64,000 bases of DNA from Pseudoxanthomonas sp. JBR18. Lineage in GTDB: Bacteria; Pseudomonadota; Gammaproteobacteria; Xanthomonadales; Xanthomonadaceae. Both the position numbers and the translations under genes were made by a program. The notes under the pieces were generated by a model. The model saw only the letters and a list, made by a program, of their open reading frames with translations, was not told the origin of the DNA and made no database searches. This document shows, one piece after another, positions 17,625-63,597 of the stretch (its first letter is position 1; every line of letters begins with the position of its first letter). The stretch spans positions 558,001 through 622,000 of the forward strand of contig NZ_CP116339.1 of the NCBI RefSeq assembly GCF_028198165.1, given 5' to 3'.

Positions 17625-18383
17625 TCACGCGCGCTGCAGCCGGCGCCGGGCCAGGCCTAAGCAGGCGGCGGTCACCACGATCAGCACCAGCACATGCAGC
17701 CAGGCCGGGTGCCCCGCGTCTTGCCCCACCACCTTCAGCGCCAGCTGGCCCAGGTGCCAGGCCGGCCAGAGCGGCGCGATCTGGCCGAAGAAGGGCGGCA
17801 ATATCGACAGCGGCAACCACAGGCCCGACAGCAGCGCCAGGGGCAGGTAGACCAGATTGACCACCGCCGGTGCGCCACTGCCGCTGACCAGCGTGCCGAT
17901 CAGCAGACCCAGCGCGCAGAACGGCAGCACGCCCAGCACATCGATCGCCAGCAACGTGGCCATCTGCGCCAGCGACAACTGCACGCCGCCCAGCATGCGC
18001 CCGGCCAGCATCAGCAGCACGCCGATGCAGGTGGCAAACAACATCGCCATGACCATCTTGGCGGCCAGCGGCGCGCCGGCCGGGACCGGCAATGCGCGTT
18101 TGAGGGTCAGCAGGCCGCGTTCGCGATCCAGCGCCAGGCTGACGCCGAAGCCGAACAGCCCCGGCCCCATCACCCCGAATACGCTGTAGCTGGCCATCAG
18201 GTAGCGGCTGGCTTCGGGGTTGGCGCGATTGAGCAGCACGCCGAACAGCAGGTAGAACATCAGCGGAAAGATCAGTGTCGGCAGCGCGAACGAGGGCGTG
18301 CGCAACAGGCGCAGGCATTCGTAGCGCGCCTCGTGCAGGTATAGGCGCAGCGTGGAGGGTGCGTTGGGGACGGTGGCGTTCAT
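17625..18383 (-). CDS. ABC-2 type exporter permease
   Basis: The 252-residue protein has six predicted membrane helices in the ABC-2 pattern, including PSFALPTLIFPLMFYLLFG and a VLGVLPFCALGLLIGTLV segment. It would form the membrane channel for the ATPase encoded just upstream, whose stop overlaps its ATG at 18380-18383. Such exporters next to DesKR-like systems often handle lipids, peptides or antibiotics; no substrate can be read from the sequence. The start is fixed by the overlap and by similarity at the N-terminus (LHEARYECLRLLRTPSFALP). Confidence 0.88.
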   Translation of the reverse strand: MNATVPNAPSTLRLYLHEARYECLRLLRTPSFALPTLIFPLMFYLLFGVLLNRANPEASRYLMASYSVFGVMGPGLFGFGVSLALDRERGLLTLKRALPVPAGAPLAAKMVMAMLFATCIGVLLMLAGRMLGGVQLSLAQMATLLAIDVLGVLPFCALGLLIGTLVSGSGAPAVVNLVYLPLALLSGLWLPLSILPPFFGQIAPLWPAWHLGQLALKVVGQDAGHPAWLHVLVLIVVTAACLGLARRRLQRA

Positions 18384-19282
18384 GCGGCTTCCCGGGTGAT
18401 GGCGAGAAATGCGTCGGCCAGGCCGGCGCGTTGGATTTCCAGGTCGCACAGCTGTGGATCGTCCCGCAGCAAGCGGGCGACCACCGCTTCGGCCGGTTCG
18501 GCGTGGATCTCCAGCACCGCGCCGTCGCGACGCGCGGCGCGCACGCCGGGCCAGTCCAGCACCGCTTCGGGATCGATCGCAGTCTGCGCGCGGATGCAGC
18601 GCTGCAGCACCCGGGCACGGATCTGGGCCACGCTGCCCTGGGCCACGATGCGCCCGGCCTGCAGGACCACCACCTCGTCGGCCAGGGCCTCGGCTTCCTC
18701 CAGGTAGTGCGTGGTCAGCAGCACCGCGCAGCCGGCGGCGGCCAGCGTGCGGATGGCGGCCCATAGCTGCTGCCGCGCCTCGATGTCCAGGCCCGTCGTG
18801 GGCTCGTCGAGAAACAACACCTGCGGGTGGCCACAGATGGCCAAGGCGAACTGCACCCGCCGCTGCTGCCCTCCGGAGAGTTGGCCATAGCGGCGCCGCA
18901 GCAGCCCATCGAGCCCGGCCATGCCTATGCAGTCGGCCACACTCAGCGGCGTGGCGTAGTAACCGCGCGCCTGGGCAAGCAGTTCGCCCACGCACAGGGT
19001 GTCGGGCAGCGCGGCCTGCTGCAGCATCACCCCGACCGCCCGGCGCGCGGCCAGTTGATCGGGAGGCCGGCCGCACAGACGCACCTGCCCGGCATCGGGC
19101 TGTTGCAGGCCCAACAGCACGGATACCGCCGTACTCTTGCCCGCGCCGTTGGGGCCCAACAGCGCGAGTACGCGCCCGGGTTCCAACGCCAGGTCCAGCC
19201 CGTGGAGGGCCAGCTGCGCGCCGTAGCGTTTGTGGACCGCGGACAGGCGGGCCGGTGAAGCGATCATCTCGATCGGGGACAT
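18380..19282 (-). CDS. ABC exporter ATP-binding protein
   Basis: The 300-residue protein shows Walker A (GPNGAGKSTAV), Q-loop, the signature YGQLSGGQQRRVQFALAI, Walker B (VLFLDEPTTGLD) and the H-loop His (TTHYLEEAEAL). A C-terminal extension of about 80 residues is typical of DrrA/CcmA-type drug exporter ATPases. It is the first gene of the ABC exporter/two-component operon. The divergent MacA-like gene starts 217 bp away, and the shared intergenic region contains a TGACA-gc-TGTCA palindrome. Confidence 0.9.
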   Translation of the reverse strand: MSPIEMIASPARLSAVHKRYGAQLALHGLDLALEPGRVLALLGPNGAGKSTAVSVLLGLQQPDAGQVRLCGRPPDQLAARRAVGVMLQQAALPDTLCVGELLAQARGYYATPLSVADCIGMAGLDGLLRRRYGQLSGGQQRRVQFALAICGHPQVLFLDEPTTGLDIEARQQLWAAIRTLAAAGCAVLLTTHYLEEAEALADEVVVLQAGRIVAQGSVAQIRARVLQRCIRAQTAIDPEAVLDWPGVRAARRDGAVLEIHAEPAEAVVARLLRDDPQLCDLEIQRAGLADAFLAITREAA

Positions 19283-19368
19283 GGACGTATCTGCGGTTAC
19301 CGGACGATGCGGTTAGCCTGCGTCCCGGGGAAGGGGTGACATCAGTGCAGGCCATCATCCAATCGAGA

Positions 19369-19380
19369 TGACAGCTGTCA
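19369..19380. promoter_or_regulatory. Palindromic candidate operator TGACA-GC-TGTCA
   Basis: A perfect 12-bp palindrome sits in the 216-bp gap between two divergent exporter operons. A related palindrome, TGACA-T-TGTCA, lies at 24174-24184 upstream of the hydrolase gene. Both could bind the DesR-like regulator encoded nearby, but the half-site spacing differs by one base. No other feature is visible in this gap. Confidence 0.45.
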
Positions 19381-19498
19381 CTGGCCCGCGCACGGGCCGC
19401 TGCGCATCCTGATGCCCGACATGTTGTGACTTCCGGCAACTTGGTGCGAACCATCCGGTCGGTCACATTCCTGCTTCGACGACGTCATCCATGGACCT

Positions 19499-20743
19499 AT
19501 GAACGCTTCCGCCGAACTGTTGAAAGAGCTTCGCATCGACCGCGGCAAGGCGCCGCCCCCACCCTCGCGCAAGGGGCTGTGGATCACGCTCGTCGTCCTG
19601 GTGGTGCTGGCGCTGCTGGCGGCCATCGCCTGGTGGATGCTGGGCCGGGCCAAGCCGGTCCCGGTGCGCACCGCAACGGTGGTGGCCATGGGCAGCGGCG
19701 GGTCGCAGTCCGCCTCGGTGCTCGATGCCACCGGCTATGTGGTGGCGCGTCGCATCGCCACGGTCTCGGCGCAGATCACCGGGCGCGTGGAAGAGGTGAT
19801 GATCGAGGAAGGCCAGCACGTGGATGAAGGCCAGGTCCTGGCGCGCCTGGACCCGATCAACGCCGATGCCGAGCAGCGCCTGGCGCGTTCGCAGATGGCC
19901 TCGGCGCAGAGCCAGGTGCAGAACGTGCAGGCCCAGCTCACCCAGGCGCAGGCCGAGGCCGGACGCCTGCAGTCGCTGGTCGAGCAGCAGTTGGTCTCGC
20001 GCTCGCAGTACGACCAGCAGGTCGCCACGCGCGATGCGCTGCGCGCCCAGCTGGAAACCGCGCGCCGCAACGTGCAGGTCGCGCGCGACCAGCTGAAGAT
20101 CTCCGACATCGGCAAGGACTACACCGTGGTGCGCGCGCCGTTCTCCGGGGTGATCACGGCCAAGGCCGCCCAGCCTGGCGAGATCGTCTCGCCGCTGTCG
20201 GCCGGCGGCGGCTTCACCCGCACCGGCATCGGCACCATCGTGGACATGGACTCGCTGGAGGTCGAAGTGGACGTCGGCGAGGCCTACATCGGCCGCGTGC
20301 AGCCCAAGATGCCGGTGGAAGCCACGCTCAACGCCTACCCGGACTGGAAGATCCCGGCCGAGGTCATCGCGGTGATCCCCACCGCCGACCGCGGCAAGGC
20401 CACGGTCAAGGTGCGCATCGCGTTGAAGGTGAAGGATCCGCGCATCGTCCCGGAGATGGGCGTGAACGTGAGCTTCCTGGAAGCCGCACCGAAGCAACAG
20501 GACGCCACCCCGCCGGGTGTGCGCGTGCCGGCCGCCGCGGTCACCGAGCGCGATGGCGCGCCGGCCGCATTCGTGGTGAACGCAGACAAGGTGGAGCAGC
20601 GCACGCTCAAGGCGGGTGCCACGCTCGCCAACGACCGCCAGATCCTCGGCGGCCTGCAGGCGGGCGAGACCGTGGTCCTCGACCCACCGCCGACACTCAA
20701 GGATGGCGACGCGGTGGATACCACCGCCGGCGCCGGCACGTAA
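19499..20743 (+). CDS. MacA/HlyD-type periplasmic adaptor protein
   Basis: The 414-residue protein has an N-terminal membrane anchor (27-48), a biotinyl-lipoyl-like half (GRVEEVMIEEGQHVDEGQVL), a helical hairpin of about 75 residues rich in Gln and Ala (about 125-200), the returning lipoyl half (VVRAPFSGVITAK) and beta-barrel domains. Adaptors of this kind link inner-membrane MacB-like ABC exporters to an outer-membrane channel. An ATPase gene and two FtsX-like permease genes follow in the same direction. No outer-membrane TolC-like gene lies nearby. Confidence 0.88.
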   Translation: MNASAELLKELRIDRGKAPPPPSRKGLWITLVVLVVLALLAAIAWWMLGRAKPVPVRTATVVAMGSGGSQSASVLDATGYVVARRIATVSAQITGRVEEVMIEEGQHVDEGQVLARLDPINADAEQRLARSQMASAQSQVQNVQAQLTQAQAEAGRLQSLVEQQLVSRSQYDQQVATRDALRAQLETARRNVQVARDQLKISDIGKDYTVVRAPFSGVITAKAAQPGEIVSPLSAGGGFTRTGIGTIVDMDSLEVEVDVGEAYIGRVQPKMPVEATLNAYPDWKIPAEVIAVIPTADRGKATVKVRIALKVKDPRIVPEMGVNVSFLEAAPKQQDATPPGVRVPAAAVTERDGAPAAFVVNADKVEQRTLKAGATLANDRQILGGLQAGETVVLDPPPTLKDGDAVDTTAGAGT

Positions 20744-52532: not shown

Positions 52533-54545
52533 ATGTCCATGCTTTCCAACGCGTCTCGAATCGCCGCGCCGCTCATCCTGACGGCCGCCGCACTCTCCCT
52601 CGCCGCCTGCGGCAAACACGACGAGCAATCCACCGCACAGACCCCCACGGCAGCGCCGCCGGCCAGCAGTCCGCCGCCGGCCGCCGTGGTCGATACCGAT
52701 GCCGAGTTCCAGGCCAATGCTGCCAAACCCGAGAACTGGGGCGGGATCGGGCGGGACTTCGCATTGACCCGCCATAGTCCGCTGTCGGACATCAACACCG
52801 ACAACGTCAAGAACCTCAAGATGTCCTGGGAGATGAAGAGCGGCGCGACCCGTGGCCACGAGGGCCAGCCGCTGGTGATCGACGGGGTGATGTACACCGT
52901 CAGTGCCTATCCCAACATCGTGCATGCCATCGACGTCTCCCAGCCGGGCGAGCACAAGGAGCTGTGGAGCTATACCCCGGACCAGGACGAGCGCTCGGTC
53001 GCCGTTGCCTGTTGCGATACGGTCAACCGTGGCGGCTCCTACGCCGATGGCAAGTTCGTCTTCAACAGCCTGTCCGGCGAGGTCATCGCCCTGGACGCCA
53101 AGACCGGCAAGGTGGCCTGGAAATACAAGGGCGCCGACCCGGGCAAGGGCGAGACCATGACCATGGCGCCGATCATCGCCGACGGTAAGGTGATCGCCGG
53201 CATCTCGGGCAACGAGTTCGGCGTGCGGGGCCGCGTGGAAGCGCTCAACCTGGCCGACGGCAAGCCGGTGTGGACCTGCCATGCCACTGGCACCGACAAG
53301 GACATCTGCCTGGGCCCGGACTTCAACAAGGCCCACCCCGAATACGGCCAGCTGGGCGATCTGGGGGTCAAGACCTATCCGGACGACGAATGGCAGCGCG
53401 GCGGCGGCGCGGCATGGGGCTGGTACAGCTACGATCCCAAGCTGAAGCTGGTCTACATCGGCACCGGCAACCCCGGGCTGTGGAGCCCGAGCTATCGCTG
53501 CGGCGCCAAGCCGGTCACCCAGGAGGCCTGCAACAACGGCGACTGGGACAACAAGTGGTCGATGACCATCTTCGCCCGCAACGTGGATACCGGCGAGGCG
53601 GTGTGGGGCTACCAGATGACCCCGTTCGACCAGTGGGACTACGACGGCATCAACGAGCCGATCCTGGTGGACATGGACATCGACGGCAAGCAGGTGCCCT
53701 CGCTGGTGACCTTCAACCGCAATGGTCACGCCTACGTCCTGGACCGGCGTGACGGCACCCTGCTGCGCGCCCACACCTATGGCCCGGTGGACTGGGCCGA
53801 GCGCATCGACATGAAGACCGGTCGCCCGGTCAAGGTCGCGGCGCATTCGCCGCTGGAGGTGGGCAAGATGGTCTCGGCCTCGCCCTCGGCGATGGGCACC
53901 AAGGACCAGCAGCCGTGCTCGGTCGATCCCAAGCAGCCGAACATCTTCTTCTGCGGCACCAACAACTGGTACATGGAACTGACCCCGCAGGAACGCGGCC
54001 GCACCATGCAGGGCATGCCGTACGTGTTCGCCAACGTGGCGATGAAGCCGCACAAGCCCGGCGCGCTGGGCATCGTCAAGGCCTTCGACGTGCTGACCGG
54101 CAAGGAGAAGTGGAGCATCGAGGAGAAGTTCCCGACCTGGAGCGGCACCCTGGTGACCGATGGCGGGCTGGTGTTCTACGGCACGCTCGATGGCTGGTTC
54201 CGCGCGGTGGATGAGGAAACCGGCAAGAAGCTGTGGGAGACCAAGCTGCCCAGCGGCGTCATCGGCAACCCGATCGCCTACAAAGTCGGCAACGAGCAGT
54301 ACGTGGCGGTCTACTCGGGCATCGGCGGCTGGATCGGCCTGCCCATCGCCGGAGGTCTGGATCCCAGCGATCCGTATGGCGCCCTGGGCGCGGCGGGCCT
54401 GGCCTTCAAGAACGGGTTCGACAAGATCCCGCTCGGCGGCATGGTCCACGTGTTCCACCTGGGCACCGATGGCGTGCCGGACGGTGCAGCGTCCAAGGCC
54501 ACCGCCTCGACCCAGACCGCGAAGGGCACCACGCCCGCCTCCTGA
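52533..54545 (+). CDS. xoxF: XoxF-type (lanthanide) PQQ-dependent alcohol dehydrogenase, lipoprotein form
   Basis: The 670-residue periplasmic quinoprotein oxidises primary alcohols. It has the adjacent Cys pair C160-C161 (AVACCDTVNRGG) that contacts PQQ and repeated beta-propeller W-motifs. The active site reads DQWDYDG: catalytic Asp369 plus Asp371. The second Asp replaces the Ala of calcium-type MxaF and is the accepted marker of lanthanide-dependent XoxF enzymes. Unusually, a lipobox (LAAC, Cys26) and a Pro/Ala-rich tether (27-55) replace the ordinary cleavable signal. XoxJ-, cytochrome- and propeller-like genes follow. The natural substrate (methanol or another alcohol) cannot be read. 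Confidence 0.88.
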   Translation: MSMLSNASRIAAPLILTAAALSLAACGKHDEQSTAQTPTAAPPASSPPPAAVVDTDAEFQANAAKPENWGGIGRDFALTRHSPLSDINTDNVKNLKMSWEMKSGATRGHEGQPLVIDGVMYTVSAYPNIVHAIDVSQPGEHKELWSYTPDQDERSVAVACCDTVNRGGSYADGKFVFNSLSGEVIALDAKTGKVAWKYKGADPGKGETMTMAPIIADGKVIAGISGNEFGVRGRVEALNLADGKPVWTCHATGTDKDICLGPDFNKAHPEYGQLGDLGVKTYPDDEWQRGGGAAWGWYSYDPKLKLVYIGTGNPGLWSPSYRCGAKPVTQEACNNGDWDNKWSMTIFARNVDTGEAVWGYQMTPFDQWDYDGINEPILVDMDIDGKQVPSLVTFNRNGHAYVLDRRDGTLLRAHTYGPVDWAERIDMKTGRPVKVAAHSPLEVGKMVSASPSAMGTKDQQPCSVDPKQPNIFFCGTNNWYMELTPQERGRTMQGMPYVFANVAMKPHKPGALGIVKAFDVLTGKEKWSIEEKFPTWSGTLVTDGGLVFYGTLDGWFRAVDEETGKKLWETKLPSGVIGNPIAYKVGNEQYVAVYSGIGGWIGLPIAGGLDPSDPYGALGAAGLAFKNGFDKIPLGGMVHVFHLGTDGVPDGAASKATASTQTAKGTTPAS

Positions 54546-54566
54546 TCCGCACCGACGGATCGTTCG

Positions 54567-54593
54567 GAAGCGGCGGCCAGGCGCCGCCGCTTC
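54567..54593. terminator. Intergenic hairpin between the dehydrogenase and XoxJ-like genes
   Basis: GAAGCGGCGGC and GCCGCCGCTTC make a perfect 11-bp stem with a CAGGC loop in the 74-bp gap. There is no T-run, so it may stabilise the dehydrogenase mRNA or lower downstream expression rather than end the operon. Confidence 0.6.
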
Positions 54594-54619
54594 ACCCCCC
54601 ATTGTTCCAGGCTCGCACC

Positions 54620-56278
54620 ATGCGTACTCCCCATCTGATCCTGGCCGCCGGCGCGCTCGCGCTCGGCGCCTGTTCGCCATCCTCCTCTTCCTCCGACGCC
54701 GCCTCGACAGGCGCCAAGCAAGCCCCCGCAGCGGCCGCCTCGCCTGCCCTGGCGCAGACCGACACCAGCGGCCCGGCGCTGCGCATCTGCGCCGACCCGG
54801 GCAACATGCCACTGTCCAACCAGGCCGGCGAGGGTTACCAGAACAAGATCGCCCAGGTCCTGGGCAAGTCCATGGGCCTGCCGGTGAAGTACTACTGGCG
54901 CACCTACTACGAACGCGGCCTGGCCCGCGGCACCGTCAACAGCGGCAAGTGCGACGTGCTGATGGACATGCCGGCCGATTACGAGATGGGCCTGACCACC
55001 AAGCCCTACTTCCGCTCGACCTACGTGCTGGTCAGCAGCGGGGACGCTCCGCTCAAGCCCACCTCGCTGGATGATCCAGCCCTCAAGCAGGCCAGGATCG
55101 GCGTCTTCCAGAGTTCGCCCGCGCGTGGTGCGCTGTACGACCACGGCATCAAGGGCGAGGTGCAGTATCTGTTCTACGACTCGGCCCGCAATCCGGAAGA
55201 ACACCCCGCACGCCTGGTCGAACAGGTCGCCAAGGGCAAGCTGGACGCCGTCGAATCCTGGGGCCCGGTGGCCGGTTACTACGTCAAGCGCAACCAGCTG
55301 ACCATGGTGCCGCTCAATCGCATGAGCGATACGGTGCTCGAATATTCCATGTCGCTGGCCGTGAGCAAGGACAACAAGGCACTGCGCGACAGGCTGGACC
55401 AGGCCCTGGTCGAGAACCGCGATGCGATCCGCGCCATCCTCACCGAGTACGACGTCCCGCTGGTGGCCTGCGCCGACTGCGTGATTTCCGGCGAGGTGCC
55501 CACGCATGGGCCCTACGCGCCGCCTCCGCCGTTCCAGGACCAGCCGGTCTCCGATCCGCAGGTCCTGGCGCAGATGCAGGCGCGCATCCGTGCCGGCGCC
55601 TCGCCCGAGGCCGAGTTGGGCGCGGCGGTGGCCGCCAACGATCCGGACCGGGTGCGCTGGCTGCTGGCCCATGGCGCCAACGGCGACGCCCTGGACGATC
55701 AGGGCCGGCTGCCGCTGCAGCACGCCATCCGCCTGCGCGAGCTGGCCGTCGGCGATGCCCTGCTCAATGGCGGCGCCAAGCTGGAGGCACGCGACGGAGA
55801 TGGTTGGACACCGTTAATGACCGCACTGTGGACCGGCGATGCCGACACCGTCGACTGGCTGCTGCGCAAGCGGCCCAGGCTAAATGTGGTGTCCACCGAT
55901 GGCTGGACCCCGCTGTCGGTGGCCATCCATAACGGCGACGAAGCCCTGGTGGCCAAGCTGCTGGATGCCGGGGCGCCGCCGGCGCAGGTCAATCCTGCGG
56001 GCTTCACCCCGCTGATGTTCGCCGCGGTGGAAAACCAGCCTGGCACCGTGCAGCGGCTGCTGGAGGCCAAGGTGCCAGTCGACCACGCCAACCAGGCCGG
56101 CATCACCGCCCTGATGCTGGCCGTGGCCGCCCATCGCCAGGACCTGGCGCGCACGCTGATCGACGCCGGTGCCGACCCCAACCACCGCGATGAAAAGGGC
56201 GACAGCGCGCTCAGCCTGGCCCGCCAATCGGGCGATGCCGACTTGCTGGCCCTGGTCTCCGCGCAAATCCCCCACTGA
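54620..56278 (+). CDS. XoxJ/MxaJ-like binding protein fused to an ankyrin-repeat domain (lipoprotein)
   Basis: The 552-residue protein has a lipobox (LGAC, Cys18). A solute-binding-protein domain follows (about 50-300): LRICADPGNMPLSNQAGEGY, KYYWRTYYERG, GKCDVLMDMPADYEMGLTTK and PYFRSTYVL are hallmarks of the quinoprotein-dehydrogenase-associated family (MxaJ/XoxJ). A linker with a CADC pair and a Pro-rich hinge leads to about six ankyrin repeats (about 330-552, e.g. DGWTPLMTALWTGDADTV and ADPNHRDEKGDSALSL). MxaJ/XoxJ proteins are thought to help activate the dehydrogenase. An ankyrin fusion is not usual for the family. It follows the xoxF-like gene directly. Confidence 0.85.
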   Translation: MRTPHLILAAGALALGACSPSSSSSDAASTGAKQAPAAAASPALAQTDTSGPALRICADPGNMPLSNQAGEGYQNKIAQVLGKSMGLPVKYYWRTYYERGLARGTVNSGKCDVLMDMPADYEMGLTTKPYFRSTYVLVSSGDAPLKPTSLDDPALKQARIGVFQSSPARGALYDHGIKGEVQYLFYDSARNPEEHPARLVEQVAKGKLDAVESWGPVAGYYVKRNQLTMVPLNRMSDTVLEYSMSLAVSKDNKALRDRLDQALVENRDAIRAILTEYDVPLVACADCVISGEVPTHGPYAPPPPFQDQPVSDPQVLAQMQARIRAGASPEAELGAAVAANDPDRVRWLLAHGANGDALDDQGRLPLQHAIRLRELAVGDALLNGGAKLEARDGDGWTPLMTALWTGDADTVDWLLRKRPRLNVVSTDGWTPLSVAIHNGDEALVAKLLDAGAPPAQVNPAGFTPLMFAAVENQPGTVQRLLEAKVPVDHANQAGITALMLAVAAHRQDLARTLIDAGADPNHRDEKGDSALSLARQSGDADLLALVSAQIPH

Positions 56279-56328
56279 TCCCTGTCCCACGTCCTGCGCA
56301 AGCGAACAGCAACAGAAAAGGAATCTCC

Positions 56329-56949
56329 ATGTTCGACGCAACACGCAAAGCGTTCAAACCCCTGCTGGTCGTGCCGGCGATGGTCCTGGCGCTGGCCGCC
56401 TGCGGTGAAAAGGCCCAGCCGGCCGCCGCCACGCCGACGGCCTCGACGCCCGCCGTACCTGAAACGACCGCACCCGCGGCCTCGGCGCCGGCCGCGCCCG
56501 AGGCCAATGCCACCGCGACCGCAGCACCAGCCGCCGCGCCCACGCCGGTCCCGCACATCGACAACATCCAGGTGAATCCAACGCTGGTGGCCGAGGGCAA
56601 GAAGCTGTTCTTCACCGCAGGCTGCAACGCCTGCCACGGCGGCACCGGCGGAGGCGGCATGTGCCCGCCGCTGACCAACAAGGTCTGGGTCTACGGCAGC
56701 GACGACAGCACCCTGCACGCACTGATCAAGGAAGGTTCCCAGGCCATGCAGACCACCCACGGGCTCAAGCGCGTGGGCCACGAGAACGTGGTCGGCATCA
56801 TGCCCGCGTTCGGGCCGATCCTGAGCGATGAGGAGATCAACAAGATCATGGCCTTCATCCACTCCATCAATCCCGACGCCGGCAAGGGCCAGACGCCGAC
56901 GGCGGCGGGCGAGGCTGCGGCGCCGGCCGCTGCCGGCAGCGGCTCGTGA
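56329..56949 (+). CDS. Mono-haem cytochrome c lipoprotein, probable electron acceptor of the dehydrogenase
   Basis: The 206-residue protein has a lipobox (LAAC, Cys25), a Pro/Ala/Thr-rich tether of about 50 residues and a class I cytochrome c domain with haem site C99-NA-C102-H103 and probable axial Met158 (IMPAFGP). An Ala/Gly-rich tail ends the protein. In Xox systems a c-type cytochrome (XoxG) takes electrons from the reduced PQQ; this gene holds that position. AAAAGGAAT precedes the ATG. Its stop overlaps the next start (GTGA). Confidence 0.88.
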   Translation: MFDATRKAFKPLLVVPAMVLALAACGEKAQPAAATPTASTPAVPETTAPAASAPAAPEANATATAAPAAAPTPVPHIDNIQVNPTLVAEGKKLFFTAGCNACHGGTGGGGMCPPLTNKVWVYGSDDSTLHALIKEGSQAMQTTHGLKRVGHENVVGIMPAFGPILSDEEINKIMAFIHSINPDAGKGQTPTAAGEAAAPAAAGSGS

Positions 56950-57998
56950 GGGTCGACCTGCGACGCCCAGTCGGGCTGCTGGCCGCGGCCGGGCTTGCCT
57001 TGTTCGCCGGCTGCCAGCGGCCGGCGGCGGAGACATCGGCACCTGCCCCGGTCGCATCCACGCCTGCATCGACCGCGGACACCGCCCCGCCGCCGGCAAG
57101 CGCCGTGCACGCCTACGTGCCCAACCAGAAGAGCGGGACGATTTCGGTGATCGACACCGGCAGCGATACCGTGGCGCGCACGCTTTCGGCGGGCGGCACA
57201 CTGGGCAACCGCCTGCAGCAGATTGCACTGGGGCCCGACGGCAAGGCCTTGTACGTGGTCGATGCCGAGCACCATCGCCTGCTGCAACTGGACATCGCCA
57301 GCGACGCAGTCCAGCGCACGCTGGACATCGGCGAAGGGGCCGAGGGCGTGGACCTGTCGCCGGATGGCCGGCAGATCGCGGTGTGCGTGGAGCAGCAGAA
57401 CCAGGTGATGTTCGTCGACACCGCCAGCTTCAAGGTCACCGGGCGAGTGGACACCCAGGGCAAGGCGCCCGAGCACTGCGCGTGGACCCCCGACGGCGCC
57501 CAGGTCATCACCAGCAACGAGGCCTCCGACAACCTGGACGTGATCGACGTGGCCGCCGGCAAGTCGGTGGCCAGCATCGCGGTCAGCGGCCACCCGCGCG
57601 ACATCGCCTTCGCCGCCGATGGCAAGCGCGCCTACGTGGCGCAGGAGTCGGCCAACGTGGTGGACGAGGTTGACCTGGCGGCGCGCAAGAAGATCCGCAG
57701 CCTGCCGGCCGGCCTGCGCACGGCCGGCGTGGTGGTCGCCTCCGACGGAAGCCGGATCTACGCCTCCAACGGCGGGGCTGGCAGCGTAACCGTCACCGAT
57801 GGCGCCAGCGGCAAACTGCTGGCGGAGATCCCGGTCGGGCAACGTCCGTGGAACCCCGCCCTCACGCCCGACGGCGCCAAGCTCTATGTCGCCAACGGGC
57901 GCTCGGACAGCGTCAGCGTGATCGACACCGCCACGATGAAGGCCATCGCGCAGATCCCCGTGGGGCAGATGCCGTGGGGCGTGGTGATGGGCCGCTGA
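56946..57998 (+). CDS. YVTN-type beta-propeller lipoprotein of the PQQ dehydrogenase group
   Basis: The 350-residue protein starts at GTG within the preceding stop. It has a lipobox (FAGC, Cys23) and about seven repeats of the YVTN/YncE beta-propeller pattern (VPNQKSGTISVIDTGSDTV; PDGKALYVVDAEHH; VANGRSDSVSVIDTATMKA). A PQQ-dependent-catabolism-associated propeller family of this type often neighbours quinoprotein dehydrogenases. It may scaffold partners in the periplasm; no enzyme motif is visible. It is the last gene of the group, and its stop lies within a shared hairpin. Confidence 0.85.
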   Translation: MRVDLRRPVGLLAAAGLALFAGCQRPAAETSAPAPVASTPASTADTAPPPASAVHAYVPNQKSGTISVIDTGSDTVARTLSAGGTLGNRLQQIALGPDGKALYVVDAEHHRLLQLDIASDAVQRTLDIGEGAEGVDLSPDGRQIAVCVEQQNQVMFVDTASFKVTGRVDTQGKAPEHCAWTPDGAQVITSNEASDNLDVIDVAAGKSVASIAVSGHPRDIAFAADGKRAYVAQESANVVDEVDLAARKKIRSLPAGLRTAGVVVASDGSRIYASNGGAGSVTVTDGASGKLLAEIPVGQRPWNPALTPDGAKLYVANGRSDSVSVIDTATMKAIAQIPVGQMPWGVVMGR

Positions 57999-58023
57999 GC
58001 GCCGTGGCCTGGCGCGCGCTCAG
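57995..58023. terminator. Hairpin overlapping two converging stop codons
   Basis: CTGAGCGC (57995-58002) pairs with GCGCTCAG (58016-58023). The plus-strand stop (57996-57998) and the minus-strand stop (58020-58022) both lie in the arms. The gap is only 21 bp, so this is the only visible candidate for bidirectional termination. Confidence 0.55.
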
Positions 58024-58709
58024 TCCGCGCGCGCGTTGGCCAGCGCGTAACCGGCATTGGGGACGTGCTCGATCCAGTCCCCGCTGCCGCCAATGCGGAT
58101 CAGCTTGTGGCGCAGGCGGTGCACCAGCTGCTTGAGTGCATCGCGGTCGGCGCTGTCGCGATCGGACCAGACAAACCCGATGATCCGATCCGGGTCGACC
58201 GGGCGCCCACGGTGGTTCATCAACAGCCGCAGCAGGCGCAGTTCCAGGGTGGATAGCCGCGCCACCTCGCCGTGCTCGATGCGCATCTCGCTGCGCTCCG
58301 GATCCAGGGTCAACGCGCCACTGCTGAGCAGGGGCACTTCCCCCTCGCCTTCGCTGCCCCTGCGCAGCAGCGCACGCACGCGCGCCAGCAGCGCGCGCGG
58401 ACTGAAGGGCTTGCGCAGGTAATCGTCCGCGCCCAGGTCCAGCCCGCGCACTTCGTCCTCCTCCGAGGCGCGCACGGTCAGCATCATCACCGGCACCTCG
58501 CTGTGCCGGCGCAAGGCCTCCAGCACCGAGAACCCATCGCGGCGCGGCAGATTGACGTCCAGCACCACCAGCTCCGGGGCGTGCTTCTCGAACTGGCTCA
58601 GCGCGTGTTCGCCGTCGAACGCGCTCACCACCTCATAGCCGGCACTGCTGAGCGCGAACTGCAGCAGACCGACCAGTTCGACATCGTCGTCGACCACCAG
58701 GATGCGCAT
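58020..58709 (-). CDS. OmpR/PhoB-family response regulator
   Basis: The 229-residue protein has a receiver domain with DDD at 7-9, phosphoacceptor Asp51 (VVLDVNLP), the conserved Thr and Lys (LTVRA; YLRKPFSP) and a C-terminal winged helix (about 135-225; LSTLELRLLRLLMNHRGRPV and VHRLRHKLIRIG). The ATG overlaps the kinase stop by one base (TGATG). It is the last gene of an apparent sulfate-uptake operon, so control of sulfur uptake is plausible, but no target is evident. Confidence 0.9.
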   Translation of the reverse strand: MRILVVDDDVELVGLLQFALSSAGYEVVSAFDGEHALSQFEKHAPELVVLDVNLPRRDGFSVLEALRRHSEVPVMMLTVRASEEDEVRGLDLGADDYLRKPFSPRALLARVRALLRRGSEGEGEVPLLSSGALTLDPERSEMRIEHGEVARLSTLELRLLRLLMNHRGRPVDPDRIIGFVWSDRDSADRDALKQLVHRLRHKLIRIGGSGDWIEHVPNAGYALANARAD

Positions 58710-60757
58710 CAGGCAGGCTCCAGCGGCAGCACCACGCCAAAGCGCGCGCCCTGCCGATGACGGGGCTCGGCCAGGACCACCTCGCCGCCATGCTGCTCGA
58801 CCAGGGCGCGCACGATGGCCAGCCCCAGGCCGGTCCCGCGCTGGGAGGGCTCCTGGTCCGGCGCGCGCCGGAACGGCGCGAACAGGTCGGCGCGGTGGCG
58901 CAGCGGCGGCAGGCCCTGGCCTTCGTCCTCCACCCACAGTGAGACCGTCTCCTCGCCCCAGACCAGTTCGATCCAGATGGTGCTCTGGTCCGGCGCGAAT
59001 TTGTTAGCGTTGGCGAGCAGGTTGATGGCCACTTGCGACAGCCGCTGCGCATCGCCCATCAAGCGACGCGTGCTGTGCGGCAGGGACGCCATCACATGCT
59101 GGTCGCGCTGATCGGTCAAGGGCCGCATCAGTTCCACCGCATCGCGCACCAGCGCCGGCAGGTCGACGACCTCCCGACGCAGGCGCATCTGCCCGCTCTC
59201 CAGGCGCACGCTGTCCAGCAGGTTGTCCACCAGTTGCGACAGCCGCAGCGCGCCACGGTACTGCGCATCGACCAGCCGGATCGCGGTGGTGTCGCCGCCG
59301 GCGTGGACGTGCTCGCGCAGCATCTCCACCGAAGCGATCTGCGCGGCCAGCGGGGTCTGGAACTCATGGGACAGGTTGGCCAGGATGGCATCGCGCATGG
59401 CCCGCGCGGCCTCGGCGCTGGTCTCCTCGCGCACGATCGCCACCTGGCGCCCGTCCGGCGGCGCACTGGAGCGGATCACCAGGTTGCGCACGCGGCCACG
59501 CAACAGATAACGACCCGACGCCTGGGCCAGGCCATGCCGGCGCGCGTCGTGCATCGGGTCGGCCGCGTGGGTCGGACCCGCCTCGCTGGCCGCCTCCGGG
59601 GTCAGCACCGCTTCGTAGGGCTGGCCCACGACCTGGTCCTCCTCGCGCCCGACCAGGGCCAGGAAGCGGCGATTGGCGTACTGGATGCGGCGATCGACAC
59701 CCACCGCGATGATGCCGTCCTCCACCCCGTCCAGGATGGCGTCCAGCTCCTGTCGCTGGCGGCGCTCGCGCTCGGTGGAGGCCCGCAGCTGCAGGCGCAT
59801 CGAATCCAGGCTGCGGGCCAGGGCCACCGGCTCGGCCAGGTCGGTGGGCGGCACCACCACCGGGGTTTCCAGATCGCCCACGCCCAACCGCTCGGCCGCG
59901 CGCGCCACCTGGCCGAACGGCGAGGCGATGCGCCGCGCCAGCCACACCGCGATGCTGGCGGCAATCAAGGCCAGCAGCAGACTGCCCACGGCGAAGGCGG
60001 TCAGCCAACGTACGCCATCGCGTGCCACCACCTCGCGCGGCAGGGTCACCAGCAGCAGCGACTCAATGTCGCCATTGGGGCCGCGCACCGGCTCCAGCCG
60101 GGAAACGTCGCCCTGGCTGTCCGCTGCCAGGGTCTCGCCGATGCCGGTATTGCGCACGTGCCGCCACGAGGCCTGCAGGTTGGTCTGGTCCGCCGGGGCC
60201 ACCGCCTTGGCGTCGTTATCCTTGTCCAGCAGCATCACCCGTTCGCGCTGGCCGCCATGGCCGGCCAGCTCGGATGCATCCAGGCGCCGAGCCGCCACGA
60301 CCTGGCCGTGGTCCAGCTGCGCCATGGCCTGCCGCTGTACCAACCAGTGGTGCCCGCTGCCGTCGGCCACCAGCCCACTGGCCATGCCGTCCGGCGGCGC
60401 CTGCCCGACCTGGGCGAGCAGGCCGTCGCCACGCATGGCCAGCAGGTAATCCACGCGCCCGGTCTGGCGAAAGGCCTCCAGGAAATCCGCTACCGCCTGC
60501 ATCCGGCCCTTCTGCATTTCCGCGTGCAAGGTCGGGCGCTCGGACAGCAGCACCGCGACCACGGCCAGGTCGCGGCGCGCGTCCTCCAGTCGCGCCAGCG
60601 CATCGGCGCTGGCCTGCGCGACCTGCGCCTGGGCACGCTCGCGCAGCACCGCACGCAGCGTGCCCGCGCCGGTGGCCAGCAGCAGCGCGCACAGCAGCAG
60701 CGCCAGGCCGACATGGCTGAGCACGAGCAGGCGGGAAAGATTTCGGGGGCGGGGCAT
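58709..60757 (-). CDS. Sensor histidine kinase with periplasmic, HAMP and PAS domains
   Basis: The 682-residue kinase has a first membrane helix (about 9-32), a roughly 215-residue periplasmic sensor domain, a second helix (about 248-270), HAMP (about 272-325), PAS (about 345-395 with extension), a DHp domain with His464 (LANLSHEFQTPLA) and an HATPase domain with NLLANANKFAP, VEDEGQGLPP and RGTGLGLAIV. It lies 13 bp after cysW on the same strand and is coupled to the response regulator. The periplasmic part has no recognised fold. Confidence 0.9.
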   Translation of the reverse strand: MPRPRNLSRLLVLSHVGLALLLCALLLATGAGTLRAVLRERAQAQVAQASADALARLEDARRDLAVVAVLLSERPTLHAEMQKGRMQAVADFLEAFRQTGRVDYLLAMRGDGLLAQVGQAPPDGMASGLVADGSGHHWLVQRQAMAQLDHGQVVAARRLDASELAGHGGQRERVMLLDKDNDAKAVAPADQTNLQASWRHVRNTGIGETLAADSQGDVSRLEPVRGPNGDIESLLLVTLPREVVARDGVRWLTAFAVGSLLLALIAASIAVWLARRIASPFGQVARAAERLGVGDLETPVVVPPTDLAEPVALARSLDSMRLQLRASTERERRQRQELDAILDGVEDGIIAVGVDRRIQYANRRFLALVGREEDQVVGQPYEAVLTPEAASEAGPTHAADPMHDARRHGLAQASGRYLLRGRVRNLVIRSSAPPDGRQVAIVREETSAEAARAMRDAILANLSHEFQTPLAAQIASVEMLREHVHAGGDTTAIRLVDAQYRGALRLSQLVDNLLDSVRLESGQMRLRREVVDLPALVRDAVELMRPLTDQRDQHVMASLPHSTRRLMGDAQRLSQVAINLLANANKFAPDQSTIWIELVWGEETVSLWVEDEGQGLPPLRHRADLFAPFRRAPDQEPSQRGTGLGLAIVRALVEQHGGEVVLAEPRHRQGARFGVVLPLEPA

Positions 60758-60770
60758 GCGCGCGTGCTCC

Positions 60771-61616
60771 TCAGTTGCGCGGACGACGACGGTCCTGCAG
60801 ATGCTCGATCCAGGTCTTGGCCAACAGCGTCACCAGGCCCAGCATCGCCAGCAGCGAGGCCACGGCGAAGGCGGCGGTGAAGTCGTACTCGTTGTACAGA
60901 ACCTCCACGTGCAGCGGAATGGTATTGGTCAGGCCACGGATATGCCCGGATACCACCGACACCGCGCCGAACTCGCCCATCGCCCGCGCATTGCACAGCA
61001 GTACGCCGTACAGCAGGCTCCAGCGGATCGAAGGCAAGGTCACGTGGCGGAAGGTGGCCCAACCTCCAGCGCCCAGGGTGAAGGCGGCCAGCTCCGGGGC
61101 GGTGTCCTGCTCCTGCATGAAGGCGACCAGTTCGCGCGCCACGAACGGGAAGGTCACAAACAAGGTCGCCAGCACGATGCCGGGCACCGCGAACACCACC
61201 TTCCAGCCCGTGGCCGCCAGCAGCGGCGCAAACCAGCCCTGGCTGCCGAACAACAGCACCAGCAGCAGGCCGGCCACCACCGGCGAGACCGAGAACGGCA
61301 GGTCGATCAGCGTCACCAGCAGCGACTTGCCGCGGAAGGCAAAGCGCGACAGCGCCCAGCCGGCGACCACCCCGAACACCACGTTGAGCGGCACGGCGAT
61401 GGCGGCCACGGTGAGCGTGAGCCGGATCGCCGCACGCGCGTCAGGATTGGTCAGGGCGGCGACGAAGGTGTCCCAGCCGCCGGCCAGCGCCTGGCGAAAC
61501 ACCAGCACCAGCGGCAGGCCCAGGAACACCACCAGGAACAGCATCACCACGCAGATCAAGCTGCGGCGCAGCCACGGTGGGTCGCTGCGGGCCGGGGCAT
61601 GGTCCAGCTCGGCCAT
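60771..61616 (-). CDS. cysW: Sulfate/thiosulfate ABC transporter permease CysW
   Basis: The 281-residue protein has six membrane helices and the permease EAA-like loop (FTLGAGGWATFRHVTLPSIR). MGEFGAVSVVSGHI and the NTIPLHVEVLYNEYD segment are typical of CysW. It pairs with CysT to form the membrane channel for sulfate. Only one base separates it from cysT. The ATPase gene cysA, which commonly follows, is absent; a kinase gene is found instead. Confidence 0.94.
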   Translation of the reverse strand: MAELDHAPARSDPPWLRRSLICVVMLFLVVFLGLPLVLVFRQALAGGWDTFVAALTNPDARAAIRLTLTVAAIAVPLNVVFGVVAGWALSRFAFRGKSLLVTLIDLPFSVSPVVAGLLLVLLFGSQGWFAPLLAATGWKVVFAVPGIVLATLFVTFPFVARELVAFMQEQDTAPELAAFTLGAGGWATFRHVTLPSIRWSLLYGVLLCNARAMGEFGAVSVVSGHIRGLTNTIPLHVEVLYNEYDFTAAFAVASLLAMLGLVTLLAKTWIEHLQDRRRPRN

Positions 61617-61617
61617 G

Positions 61618-62499
61618 TCAGCCCTCTCCCTTGCGCCGACGCCCGCTCCAGCGCTGGGCCAGGTTGATCAGCAGCAGCATCAGGAACGAGATCACCAGCA
61701 TGGCCACCGCCAGCACGGTGGCGCTGGCGTAGTCGTACTGCTCCAGGTGCACCACGATCAGCAGCGGCGCGATCTCCGAGACCATGGGAATGTTGCCGGC
61801 GATGAAGATCACCGAGCCGTATTCGCCAATCGCGCGCGAGAAGGCCAGGGTGAAGCCGGTCAGGGCCGCCGGCAGCAGTTGGCGGATCAACACCCAACGC
61901 AGCACCTGGGCCCGACTGGCGCCCAACGTGGCGGCGGCCTCTTCCAGCGCCGGGTCCAGGTCCTGCAGCGCCGGCTGCACGGTGCGCACCACGAACGGCA
62001 GGCCGACGAACACCAGCGCCAGCGCGATGCCCGCCGGCTTGAACGCCACGTCGAGCCCAATCGCGGCCAGTGGCGCGCCCAGCCAGCCCGAAGGCGCATA
62101 CAGGGTGGCCAGTGCGATGCCGGCCACCGCGGTGGGCAAGGCAAACGGCAGGTCGATCATCGCATCGAGCAGGCGGCGCCCGGGAAAGCGATAGCGCACC
62201 AGCACCCAGGCGGTGAGCGTGCCGAACACCAGGTTGACCAGCGCCGCGCCCAGCGCCAGGCCGAAGCTGAGCCTGTAGGCGGCCAGCGCGCGCTCACTGG
62301 TGGCGATGCGCCACACCTCGGCCCAGGGAATCCCGGCCACCTTGATCAGGGCCGCGGCGATGGGCAGCACCACGATCAGCCCCAGCCAGGCCAGGGTCAG
62401 GCCCAGGGTCAGGCCAAAGCCGGGATGCACGCGGTGCACGCCTCGCCCACCGGCGCGCGAGGCGCCAGGGACGTCGGAGGAAACGGCAGTGATGTTCAT
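61618..62499 (-). CDS. cysT: Sulfate/thiosulfate ABC transporter permease CysT (CysU)
   Basis: The 293-residue protein has an N-terminal cytoplasmic extension with GFGLTLGLTLAWLGLIVVLP as first helix and six helices in all. The EAA-like loop is AATLGASRAQVLRWVLIRQLLP and SRAIGEYGSVIFIAGN is the CysT signature. It forms the sulfate channel with CysW. It follows the sulfate-binding protein gene by 30 bp. Confidence 0.94.
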   Translation of the reverse strand: MNITAVSSDVPGASRAGGRGVHRVHPGFGLTLGLTLAWLGLIVVLPIAAALIKVAGIPWAEVWRIATSERALAAYRLSFGLALGAALVNLVFGTLTAWVLVRYRFPGRRLLDAMIDLPFALPTAVAGIALATLYAPSGWLGAPLAAIGLDVAFKPAGIALALVFVGLPFVVRTVQPALQDLDPALEEAAATLGASRAQVLRWVLIRQLLPAALTGFTLAFSRAIGEYGSVIFIAGNIPMVSEIAPLLIVVHLEQYDYASATVLAVAMLVISFLMLLLINLAQRWSGRRRKGEG

Positions 62500-62529
62500 G
62501 GCGAGCGCGGCGGCCTGCAGAGCACGCGC

Positions 62530-63597
62530 CTAGGGCGCGCGCGCGGCGAAGATGCGATCGAACTGCCCGCCATCGGCGAAGTGCTCGGCCTGGGCCCGCT
62601 TCCAGCCACCAAACATCTCATCGACGGTGAACAGGCCCATCTGCGGGAATTCGGCCGCGTGCCGGGCCAGGACGTCGGCCTGGCGCGGACGGAAGTGGTG
62701 CTCGGCGGCCAGCTCCTGCCCTTGCGGCGAGTAGAGGTATTGCAGGTACTCGCGCGCCAGCGTCTCGGTGCCGTGCTGGCGCGCGACCTTGTCCACCACC
62801 GCCACGCTCGGCTCGGCCAGGATGCTGGTGCTGGGCCGCACGATCTCGTACTGGTCGCTGCCGAATTCCTGCAGCACCAGCAGCGCCTCGTTCTCCCAGG
62901 CCAGCAGCACATCGCCGATGCCGCGCTGGACGAAGGTCGTCGTCGCCCCGCGCGCGCCGGTGTCGAGCACCGGCACCGACTTGAACAGCCGGGTCATGTA
63001 GGCCTGCGCGTCGGCCTGGCTGCCGCCGCGCTTGAGCACCGAGCCCCACGCGGCCAGGTAGTTCCAACGCGCGCCACCGGAGGTCTTGGGATTGGGGGTG
63101 ACCACGGCCACGCCGTCGCGGCCCAGGTCGGTCCAGTCACGGATGTGCTTGGGATTGCCCCGGCGCACCACGAACACCACGGTCGAGGTGTACGGCGCAC
63201 TGTTGTCGGGCAGCCTGGACTGCCAGTTGGCATCGACCAGGCCGTGGTCGACCAGGGCATCCACGTCCGAGGCCAGCGCCAGGGTGACCACGTCGGCCTC
63301 CAGGCCGTCGATCACCGAACGCGCCTGCTTGCCCGAGCCGCCGTGGGACATGCGCAGCGTCGGCGCGCTGCCATGCTCAGCCTGGTAATGCTGGACGAAG
63401 GCCTTGTTGAAGGCCGCGTAGAACTCGCGGGTGGGGTCGTAGCTGACGTTGAGCAGGGTGACGTCGGCCGCCGCCTTGGTGGCCGGCTTGGCCGCTTCGC
63501 CAGGGGCCGGCGCATCCCCGCCGCAGGCGGACAGCACCAGGCTCAGACCGGCGCCAAGCGCGGCCAGGGAGAGGCGACGGATCAGGGGGAAGGTCAT
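62530..63597 (-). CDS. sbp: Sulfate-binding lipoprotein (Sbp/CysP family)
   Basis: The 355-residue protein has a lipobox (SACG, Cys at about 25) and the sulfate-binding-protein fold: [62 protein letters not shown] and [13 protein letters not shown]. It binds sulfate or thiosulfate in the periplasm and delivers it to CysTW. Most relatives in enterobacteria are soluble; here a lipid anchor is predicted. The ATG overlaps the upstream gene by four bases. Confidence 0.93.

Follow-up and report, generated by a model that had tools for sequence, protein, structure and literature searches.

A stretch of 64,000 nucleotides from Pseudoxanthomonas sp. JBR18 (contig NZ_CP116339.1, positions 558,001 to 622,000), referred to below as the window, carries four plus-strand genes in one row downstream of purD, at 52533–57998 (Table 1). 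They are predicted to encode a XoxF dehydrogenase that uses pyrroloquinoline quinone (PQQ), a XoxJ-like protein, a c-type cytochrome and a β-propeller protein. The genome, G000, is a single contig of 4.60 Mb. The genes are separated by 74 and then 50 bases, and the last two overlap by 4 bases; this spacing fits an operon, and we therefore infer co-transcription. The initial annotation of this DNA had reported four consecutive genes led by a PQQ dehydrogenase with the D369-x-D371 pair, and all four reading frames were found in place. The nearest named relative found at the locus is Pseudoxanthomonas sp. GM95, in which XoxF is 90% identical (94% over the tree columns).

Judged by its sequence, the operon is a real and conserved version, lipidated and tethered, of the known XoxF1 system for methanol oxidation. 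We consider it probable that it encodes a methanol dehydrogenase of XoxF1 type, dependent on a lanthanide and on PQQ, with its partners, that lipid anchors hold all four products to a single membrane on its periplasmic face, and that PQQ is imported via PqqU. The genes, domains, lipoboxes, tethers, clade, gene order, PqqC/PqqE result and PqqU match are read directly from the DNA, and operon transcription, the metal, the substrate, the electron path, the scaffold role, acylation and the choice of membrane are deduced.

Table 1. Features of the xox operon, in window coordinates. Residue numbers of the second gene are counted from the ATG at 54620.
Feature	Position	Strand	Basis
xoxF1, predicted PQQ methanol dehydrogenase, 670 aa, lipoprotein precursor	52533..54545	+	TIGR03075, 7o6z match, tree
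XoxF lipobox Cys26 (LAAC), then 40-residue tether	52608..52610	+	pattern test
D369-Y370-D371 lanthanide signature	53637..53645	+	sequence; E228 and N313 present too
xoxJ-ankyrin fusion, 552 aa, predicted lipoprotein precursor	54620..56278	+	domain matches, model
XoxJ-ankyrin lipobox Cys18 (LGAC), 36-residue tether	54671..54673	+	pattern test
XoxJ/MxaJ-like periplasmic-binding domain, ~residues 54–276	54779..55447	+	TIGR03871, 6onp, AlphaFold model, Foldseek
Ankyrin-repeat domain, ~residues 313–547	55556..56260	+	Pfam Ank_2, model
c-type cytochrome, single CNACH haem site (99–103), predicted lipoprotein precursor	56329..56949	+	Pfam Cytochrom_C, CxxCH
Cytochrome c lipobox Cys25 (LAAC), 61-residue tether	56401..56403	+	pattern test
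YVTN/YncE-like β-propeller, predicted lipoprotein precursor, GTG start	56946..57998	+	4-base overlap with cytochrome stop
Propeller lipobox Cys23 (FAGC), 33-residue tether	57012..57014	+	pattern test

The xoxF product scored 586.1 bits against TIGR03075 (cut-off 480.05). Among solved structures it matched 7o6z with 895 bits over 580 residues, followed by 4mae (596), 4tqo (507), 6oc5 (506) and 6dam (488); the remaining solved methanol dehydrogenases gave 475–429 bits and the best ethanol dehydrogenase, quinoprotein 6zcv, 309. We take 7o6z to represent clade XoxF1, 4mae XoxF2, 6oc5 and 6dam XoxF5, and 4tqo MxaF. Presumably 7o6z is the neodymium XoxF1 enzyme of Methylacidimicrobium thermophilum AP8, which fits the title and passages of PMC8546591. 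The window protein has the active-site Glu and Asn (E228 and N313), the catalytic Asp with a further Asp two positions on (D369 and D371) and a Cys-Cys pair of neighbouring residues, and the active-site residues of 7o6z are retained. The motif TPFDQWDYDG is shared by all XoxF1 sequences in the tree set, and most rows outside XoxF1 have TPHDEWD[YF]DG. D-Y-D was found in all 120 listed relatives of the XoxF encoded at locus L109, a XoxF1 operon in genome G785, which belongs to the same order as the window genome and to another family.

The tree was a quick one of 58 rows chosen from the XoxF sequences found, with no PedH row and with support from the Shimodaira–Hasegawa-like approximate likelihood ratio test (SH-aLRT) only, no bootstrap. 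It placed the window protein inside a 27-row XoxF1 clade with 7o6z at its base, and within that in a 15-row Xanthomonadaceae sub-clade, each with 100% SH-aLRT. By tree and scores the window dehydrogenase is of XoxF1 type, in agreement with the XoxF assignment of the initial annotation, which had proposed placing it in a XoxF/MxaF/PedH tree. An ethanol-type (PedH/ExaA) assignment was ruled out by score, and an MxaF assignment by score, by the tree and by D371, which is Ala in 4tqo. That the protein is instead a calcium enzyme or a non-alcohol quinoprotein is very improbable: no supporting evidence was found, D-x-D is present where 4tqo has D-x-A, and the tree separates the groups. A grouping of this kind had been named beforehand as the outcome that would overturn the assignment, and it was not seen. 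The window enzyme is predicted to use a lanthanide.

The AP8 enzyme is among the closest known systems, sharing clade, the TPFDQWDYDG motif and active-site residues with the window protein. It was purified from the supernatant after ultracentrifugation, according to passages of PMC8546591, whereas the window XoxF has a lipobox and a tether. The usual, although not defining, XoxF1 trait of a soluble periplasmic enzyme is in this respect departed from by the window sequence.

Gene 2 scored 257.8 bits against TIGR03871 (cut-off 212.15) and matched the solved XoxJ 6onp, while its C-terminal half gave 105.2 bits with Pfam Ank_2. An AlphaFold model built on 28 sequences had a mean predicted local distance difference test score (pLDDT) of 85.8 and a predicted template modelling score of 0.64; the signal and tether, residues 1–49, were below 50, and seven helix pairs in the ankyrin part were mostly above 90. 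The best Foldseek matches of this model were MxaJ (5sv6 and 9ism_B) and XoxJ (6onp), then ankyrin proteins. From the matches and the model, gene 2 is a XoxJ domain followed by about seven ankyrin repeats; it shares the N-terminal domain with XoxJ and MxaJ and adds to it the repeats and a lipid anchor signal. The "XoxJ-like protein" of the initial annotation thus stands as far as the XoxJ domain goes, but the protein is not a plain XoxJ, the ankyrin half having been missed.

Ankyrin domains were listed by precomputed Pfam assignments in all of the best 120 of 608 gene 2 homologues, in a search that favours proteins of similar length, so that plain XoxJ proteins would be missed. The homologues include proteins of Methylacidimicrobium sp. 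AP8 (P0106), the source of the related XoxF1, and of M. cyclopophantes. Outside the family, XoxJ-ankyrin lies directly 3' of XoxF1 in a Nevskia metagenome-assembled genome (MAG; L034), in G785 (L109) and in G689, which belongs to another class (L110). From these cases the ankyrin fusion looks like a hallmark of XoxF1 operons, and it would provide a recognisable partner protein for them. At L109 a second gene of methanol dehydrogenase type lies ~7.5 kb downstream of the XoxF1 operon (17972–19901), and only the XoxJ part of the query matched the XoxJ-like open reading frame (ORF) that adjoins it.

All four window proteins matched a lipobox pattern of our own design (basic N-region, hydrophobic stretch, lipobox Cys), which is not a trained predictor. 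The tethers ahead of the folded domains are 70–82% A/P/T/S/E/Q, and the residues at +2 are G, S, G and Q in gene order, with no Asp. These counts bear out the lipobox and low-complexity tether that the initial annotation had seen on each of the four proteins. In a rough screen of 41 likely window genes, five matched, and gene 2 was missed because its ORF is open far upstream. Since three of the five matches are xox operon genes, the clustering of lipoboxes in the operon exceeds chance.

The same signals were sought in relatives. A lipidated group of 31 loci (the window, L009–L033, L035–L037, L112 and L113; 14 in the tree) was delimited. The lipobox was present on XoxF at 30 of the 31 loci, the exception being L021, where the N-terminal region is apparently out of frame. 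It was present on XoxJ-ankyrin in all 30 genes found (29 by script and L010 by eye), on 27 of 28 cytochromes (not in L022) and on all 28 propellers found; later genes are cut off by contig ends in L014, L021 and L112, and L022 has lost xoxJ. Median tethers over all lipobox rows were 40, 47, 74 and 32 residues for XoxF, XoxJ-ankyrin, cytochrome and propeller, respectively.

With the same script, no lipobox was found on any of the four proteins at L109 or L110, one was found on the cytochrome only at L034 (SAAGC), and one on the propeller only at L111 (LAAC; genome G018 of the same family). The G785 operon (L109) thus has the same four genes in the same sequence as the window but, unlike it, no lipobox on any of them. 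Among the XoxJ-ankyrin proteins, 56 of the 72 closer matches (P0005–P0076) were lipobox-positive by script; of the other 16, 13 start within the mature protein, P0045 and P0072 have a lipobox by eye and P0014 looks soluble. Among the 48 more distant ones (P0077–P0124) the one match was P0112, whose signal again looks ordinary; P0096 is fragmentary. In these wider comparisons some rows were assigned by eye where the script said otherwise. Relatives outside the lipidated group are thus mostly without anchor and tether, in line with the earlier remark that known XoxF enzymes are mostly soluble.

Because the four-gene order is kept in 26 of 30 loci and the three loci outside the family have at most one lipobox, lipid anchoring with tethers appears to have spread over the operon within Xanthomonadaceae, and the anchors look derived and operon-wide. 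The minimum number of lipid-state changes among XoxF1 rows of the tree is two, because the tree does not fix where L111 branches at the sub-clade's base. The single lipoboxes of L111 and L034 hint that the four anchors arose piecemeal. The matched change of anchors suggests that the four proteins cooperate at a membrane, and these concerted anchors are the best argument here for a shared place and joint work. As all four became lipoproteins in one lineage, they are pointed to as functional partners, which makes the question of partnership directly testable.

Whether that membrane is the outer or the inner one cannot be read safely from these sequences. The same system may sit in the inner membrane beside the cytochrome oxidases and not in the outer membrane or at the surface; this possibility, which is a sub-question of the lipid-anchored reading and not exclusive of it, we regard as close to evenly balanced, if slightly disfavoured. 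Electrons from the cytochrome must reach oxidases of the inner membrane, and the window XoxF, like most of the relatives' cytochromes, would begin with C-G-K after cleavage. The Pseudomonas inner-membrane lipoprotein MexA also begins C-G-K, and residues +3 and +4 matter. On the other side, Asp is absent from +2 in all lipobox rows, which by the E. coli rule indicates the outer membrane, although this rule may not be that of Xanthomonadaceae. The initial annotation was right about the lack of Asp, but its outer-membrane placement was overstated, as it relied on the E. coli rule alone, and for its surface-tethered complex no evidence of surface exposure was found, so that this part is unproven.

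The cytochrome gene product matched Pfam Cytochrom_C with 48.6 bits and has one CxxCH; its best solved matches are CcoP subunits of cbb3 oxidase. A single-CxxCH cytochrome in a xoxF operon is also what XoxG/MoxG cytochrome cL represents. To our knowledge, the electron acceptor of XoxF1 is not settled.

PQQ synthesis was looked for with PqqC and PqqE. No PqqC over the cut-off was found in G000, in a search of its own without positive control; the family search supplies one, as 72 of 395 family genomes gave a PqqC match and 71 of these exceeded the cut-off. PqqC is present in 44 of 49 carriers of XoxF1, if both family searches are taken to have sampled the same genomes, as their equal size and shared handles suggest, and a 45th carrier (G030, 87% complete) has PqqE over the cut-off. 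Neither protein reached the cut-off in G000, G364, G388 and G012, and PqqA, PqqB and PqqD were not searched for. In the XoxF tree these four genomes make up a single sub-clade; on their coordinates, G388 was taken to be L009 and G012 to be L010. All four gave weak radical-SAM matches to PqqE of 41–56 bits (cut-off 381), as did all 14 genomes tested and all 14 controls. An E. coli PqqU query gave one strong match per genome in nine genomes tested, PqqC carriers included (527–577 bits; next best 92). In G000 it lies at 1640778–1642853 (568 bits, 45%), 2.1 kb from a 572-aa ORF resembling a PQQ-propeller dehydrogenase.

Since PqqC and PqqE are not over the cut-off and PqqU is clearly matched, the window enzyme probably uses scavenged, imported PQQ. 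According to the available part of PMC12124388, PQQ synthesis is lacking in many Gram-negative bacteria that have PQQ enzymes, and the window genome resembles the PqqU-based scavengers treated there in having a PqqU match without PqqC or PqqE over the cut-off. That part names XoxF clades only in general, and the word "Xanthomonad" is not in it. The initial annotation had overlooked the missing PQQ genes, which predict that methanol is not oxidised unless PQQ is supplied; if this is true, methanol oxidation in the sub-clade would depend on two external cofactors. Further PQQ-type propeller proteins were seen by eye in G000 near 1369202, 1645139, 1954250 and 4160000, and one such protein, 809 aa long, has a hydrophobic N-terminus that makes it resemble a membrane glucose dehydrogenase.

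Of 395 genomes sampled from the family, 49 carry XoxF1 (≥74% identity), namely 16 of genus g7, 27 of g17, three of g1 (the window's) and one each of g13, g18 and g30; eight further genomes have only a relative of 42–45% identity. A scan of a genome collection returned 30 loci, comprising 26 of Xanthomonas, one of Pseudoxanthomonas and one of Lysobacter, with a match along most of XoxF, one of the Nevskia MAG and a partial one of X. vasicola (L038). In a comparison of gene order, which the initial annotation had recommended for Xanthomonadaceae, 26 of these 30 named loci kept the complete four-gene order, L029 and L033 with a gene split by frame included; the exceptions are L014 and L021 (contig ends), L022 (xoxJ lost) and L038 (remnant). 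The operon is thus widespread in Xanthomonas. Xanthomonas is largely plant-associated, and plant methanol is available there.

The patchy presence across family genomes can be cited for a different assignment, in which a XoxF1-like quinoprotein would act on another alcohol or an aldehyde, in detoxification or on plant volatiles, and not on methanol for growth. G000 does encode a glutathione-linked formaldehyde dehydrogenase (TIGR02818, 729.9 bits; cut-off 543.95), and this was the sole step of the C1 pathway that was searched for; we know of no report of methylotrophy in Pseudoxanthomonas, which also counts for this view. The score to 7o6z and the conserved active-site residues, set against the far lower score of the best ethanol-type enzyme, speak against it, and we consider it rather unlikely.

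Several observations weigh against a lipid-anchored methanol-oxidation operon. In the window's genus the operon is present in three genomes and absent from at least 20, and damaged copies occur in Xanthomonas (L021, L022, L029, L033 and L038). Gene 2 is below the cut-off of the MoxJ equivalog TIGR03870 (127.6 of 258.1 bits), and the propeller below that of PQQ_ABC_repeats TIGR03866 (185.9 of 287.3). The cytochrome is far below the MoxG/cL model TIGR03872 (28.6 of 147.8 bits), and for this reason the case for it as electron acceptor is one of position and fold class. At L034 and L110 the propeller is only ~30% identical to that of the window and may not be the same protein, and in L110 the propeller gene lies ~1.1 kb after the cytochrome gene. 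The loose lipobox pattern was also matched in seven of the 120 listed XoxF1 relatives of the L109 protein. By eye these seven have ordinary cleavable signals and no tether; in the two that were counted, ~18–22 residues precede the core, versus 43 in the window. In the 67 of the 120 relatives in which a TRH motif was found, it lies 36–67 residues from Met (median 49), versus 78 in the window.

In the damaged copies, L021 has its N-terminus apparently out of frame, L029 a split XoxJ-ankyrin and L033 a split XoxF, and L038 retains XoxF pieces only. These four suggest repeated loss in some Xanthomonas. At L022 8001–11460 (Xanthomonas arboricola pv. juglandis) there is no XoxJ-ankyrin match, and the cytochrome ORF is without a lipobox.

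For the lipid-anchored XoxF1 system the following route is proposed. Methanol would enter the periplasm and be oxidised by XoxF1, for which formaldehyde or further short alcohols are probably substrates as well. Within the fusion protein, the XoxJ domain would dock on XoxF1 as MxaJ does on MxaF, for which a structure of the complex is available (PDB entry 9ism), and the ankyrin repeats may provide a scaffold, possibly one that holds the cytochrome or the propeller. The anchored single-haem cytochrome c would pass electrons to the respiratory chain, its long tether allowing it to swing between dehydrogenase and oxidase. Formaldehyde would go to the glutathione-linked dehydrogenase, and PQQ, not made in the host, would be imported through PqqU. 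More tentatively, the whole XoxF1 operon may have moved from the free periplasm to the membrane within Xanthomonadaceae, each product gaining an anchor and a long tether, to give a two-dimensional electron-transfer complex on a XoxJ-fused periplasmic ankyrin scaffold, with the window sub-clade needing scavenged PQQ and lanthanide; this wider scenario we hold somewhat less likely to be correct than not.

No description of a lipidated XoxF operon or of a XoxJ-ankyrin fusion was found in a full-text literature search, the partial coverage of which makes this no proof of absence, nor in the available parts of PMC5606694 and PMC12482762. The earlier statement that no such system has been described in Xanthomonadaceae holds to that extent, but the system is not rare in the family, and XoxJ-ankyrin is named by annotation pipelines. 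In the portions available, PMC8999231 reports Dokdonella koreensis XoxF1 in a metaproteome and counts XoxF1 among the less studied XoxF clades, and PMC10994693 reports mxaFI in one Xanthomonadaceae bin.

A link with the upstream purine genes was set aside, as purH-purD matches were found upstream in no genus but that of the window (in L113 and in L009 and L114, the last two being a single genome), which looks like genomic position and not function. Regulation by the sensor kinase and response regulator at 58020–60757 was likewise set aside; these genes are convergent with the xox operon and gave no tblastn match (E 1e-15) in 36 compared loci, many of which end too early downstream. Convergent with the xox operon and unmatched in the compared loci, the stretch 58020–63597 of the window, its genes named by eye, runs from these two regulatory genes into permease genes of sulfate/ABC type and a gene for a binding protein whose N-terminus resembles a lipobox (LSAC).

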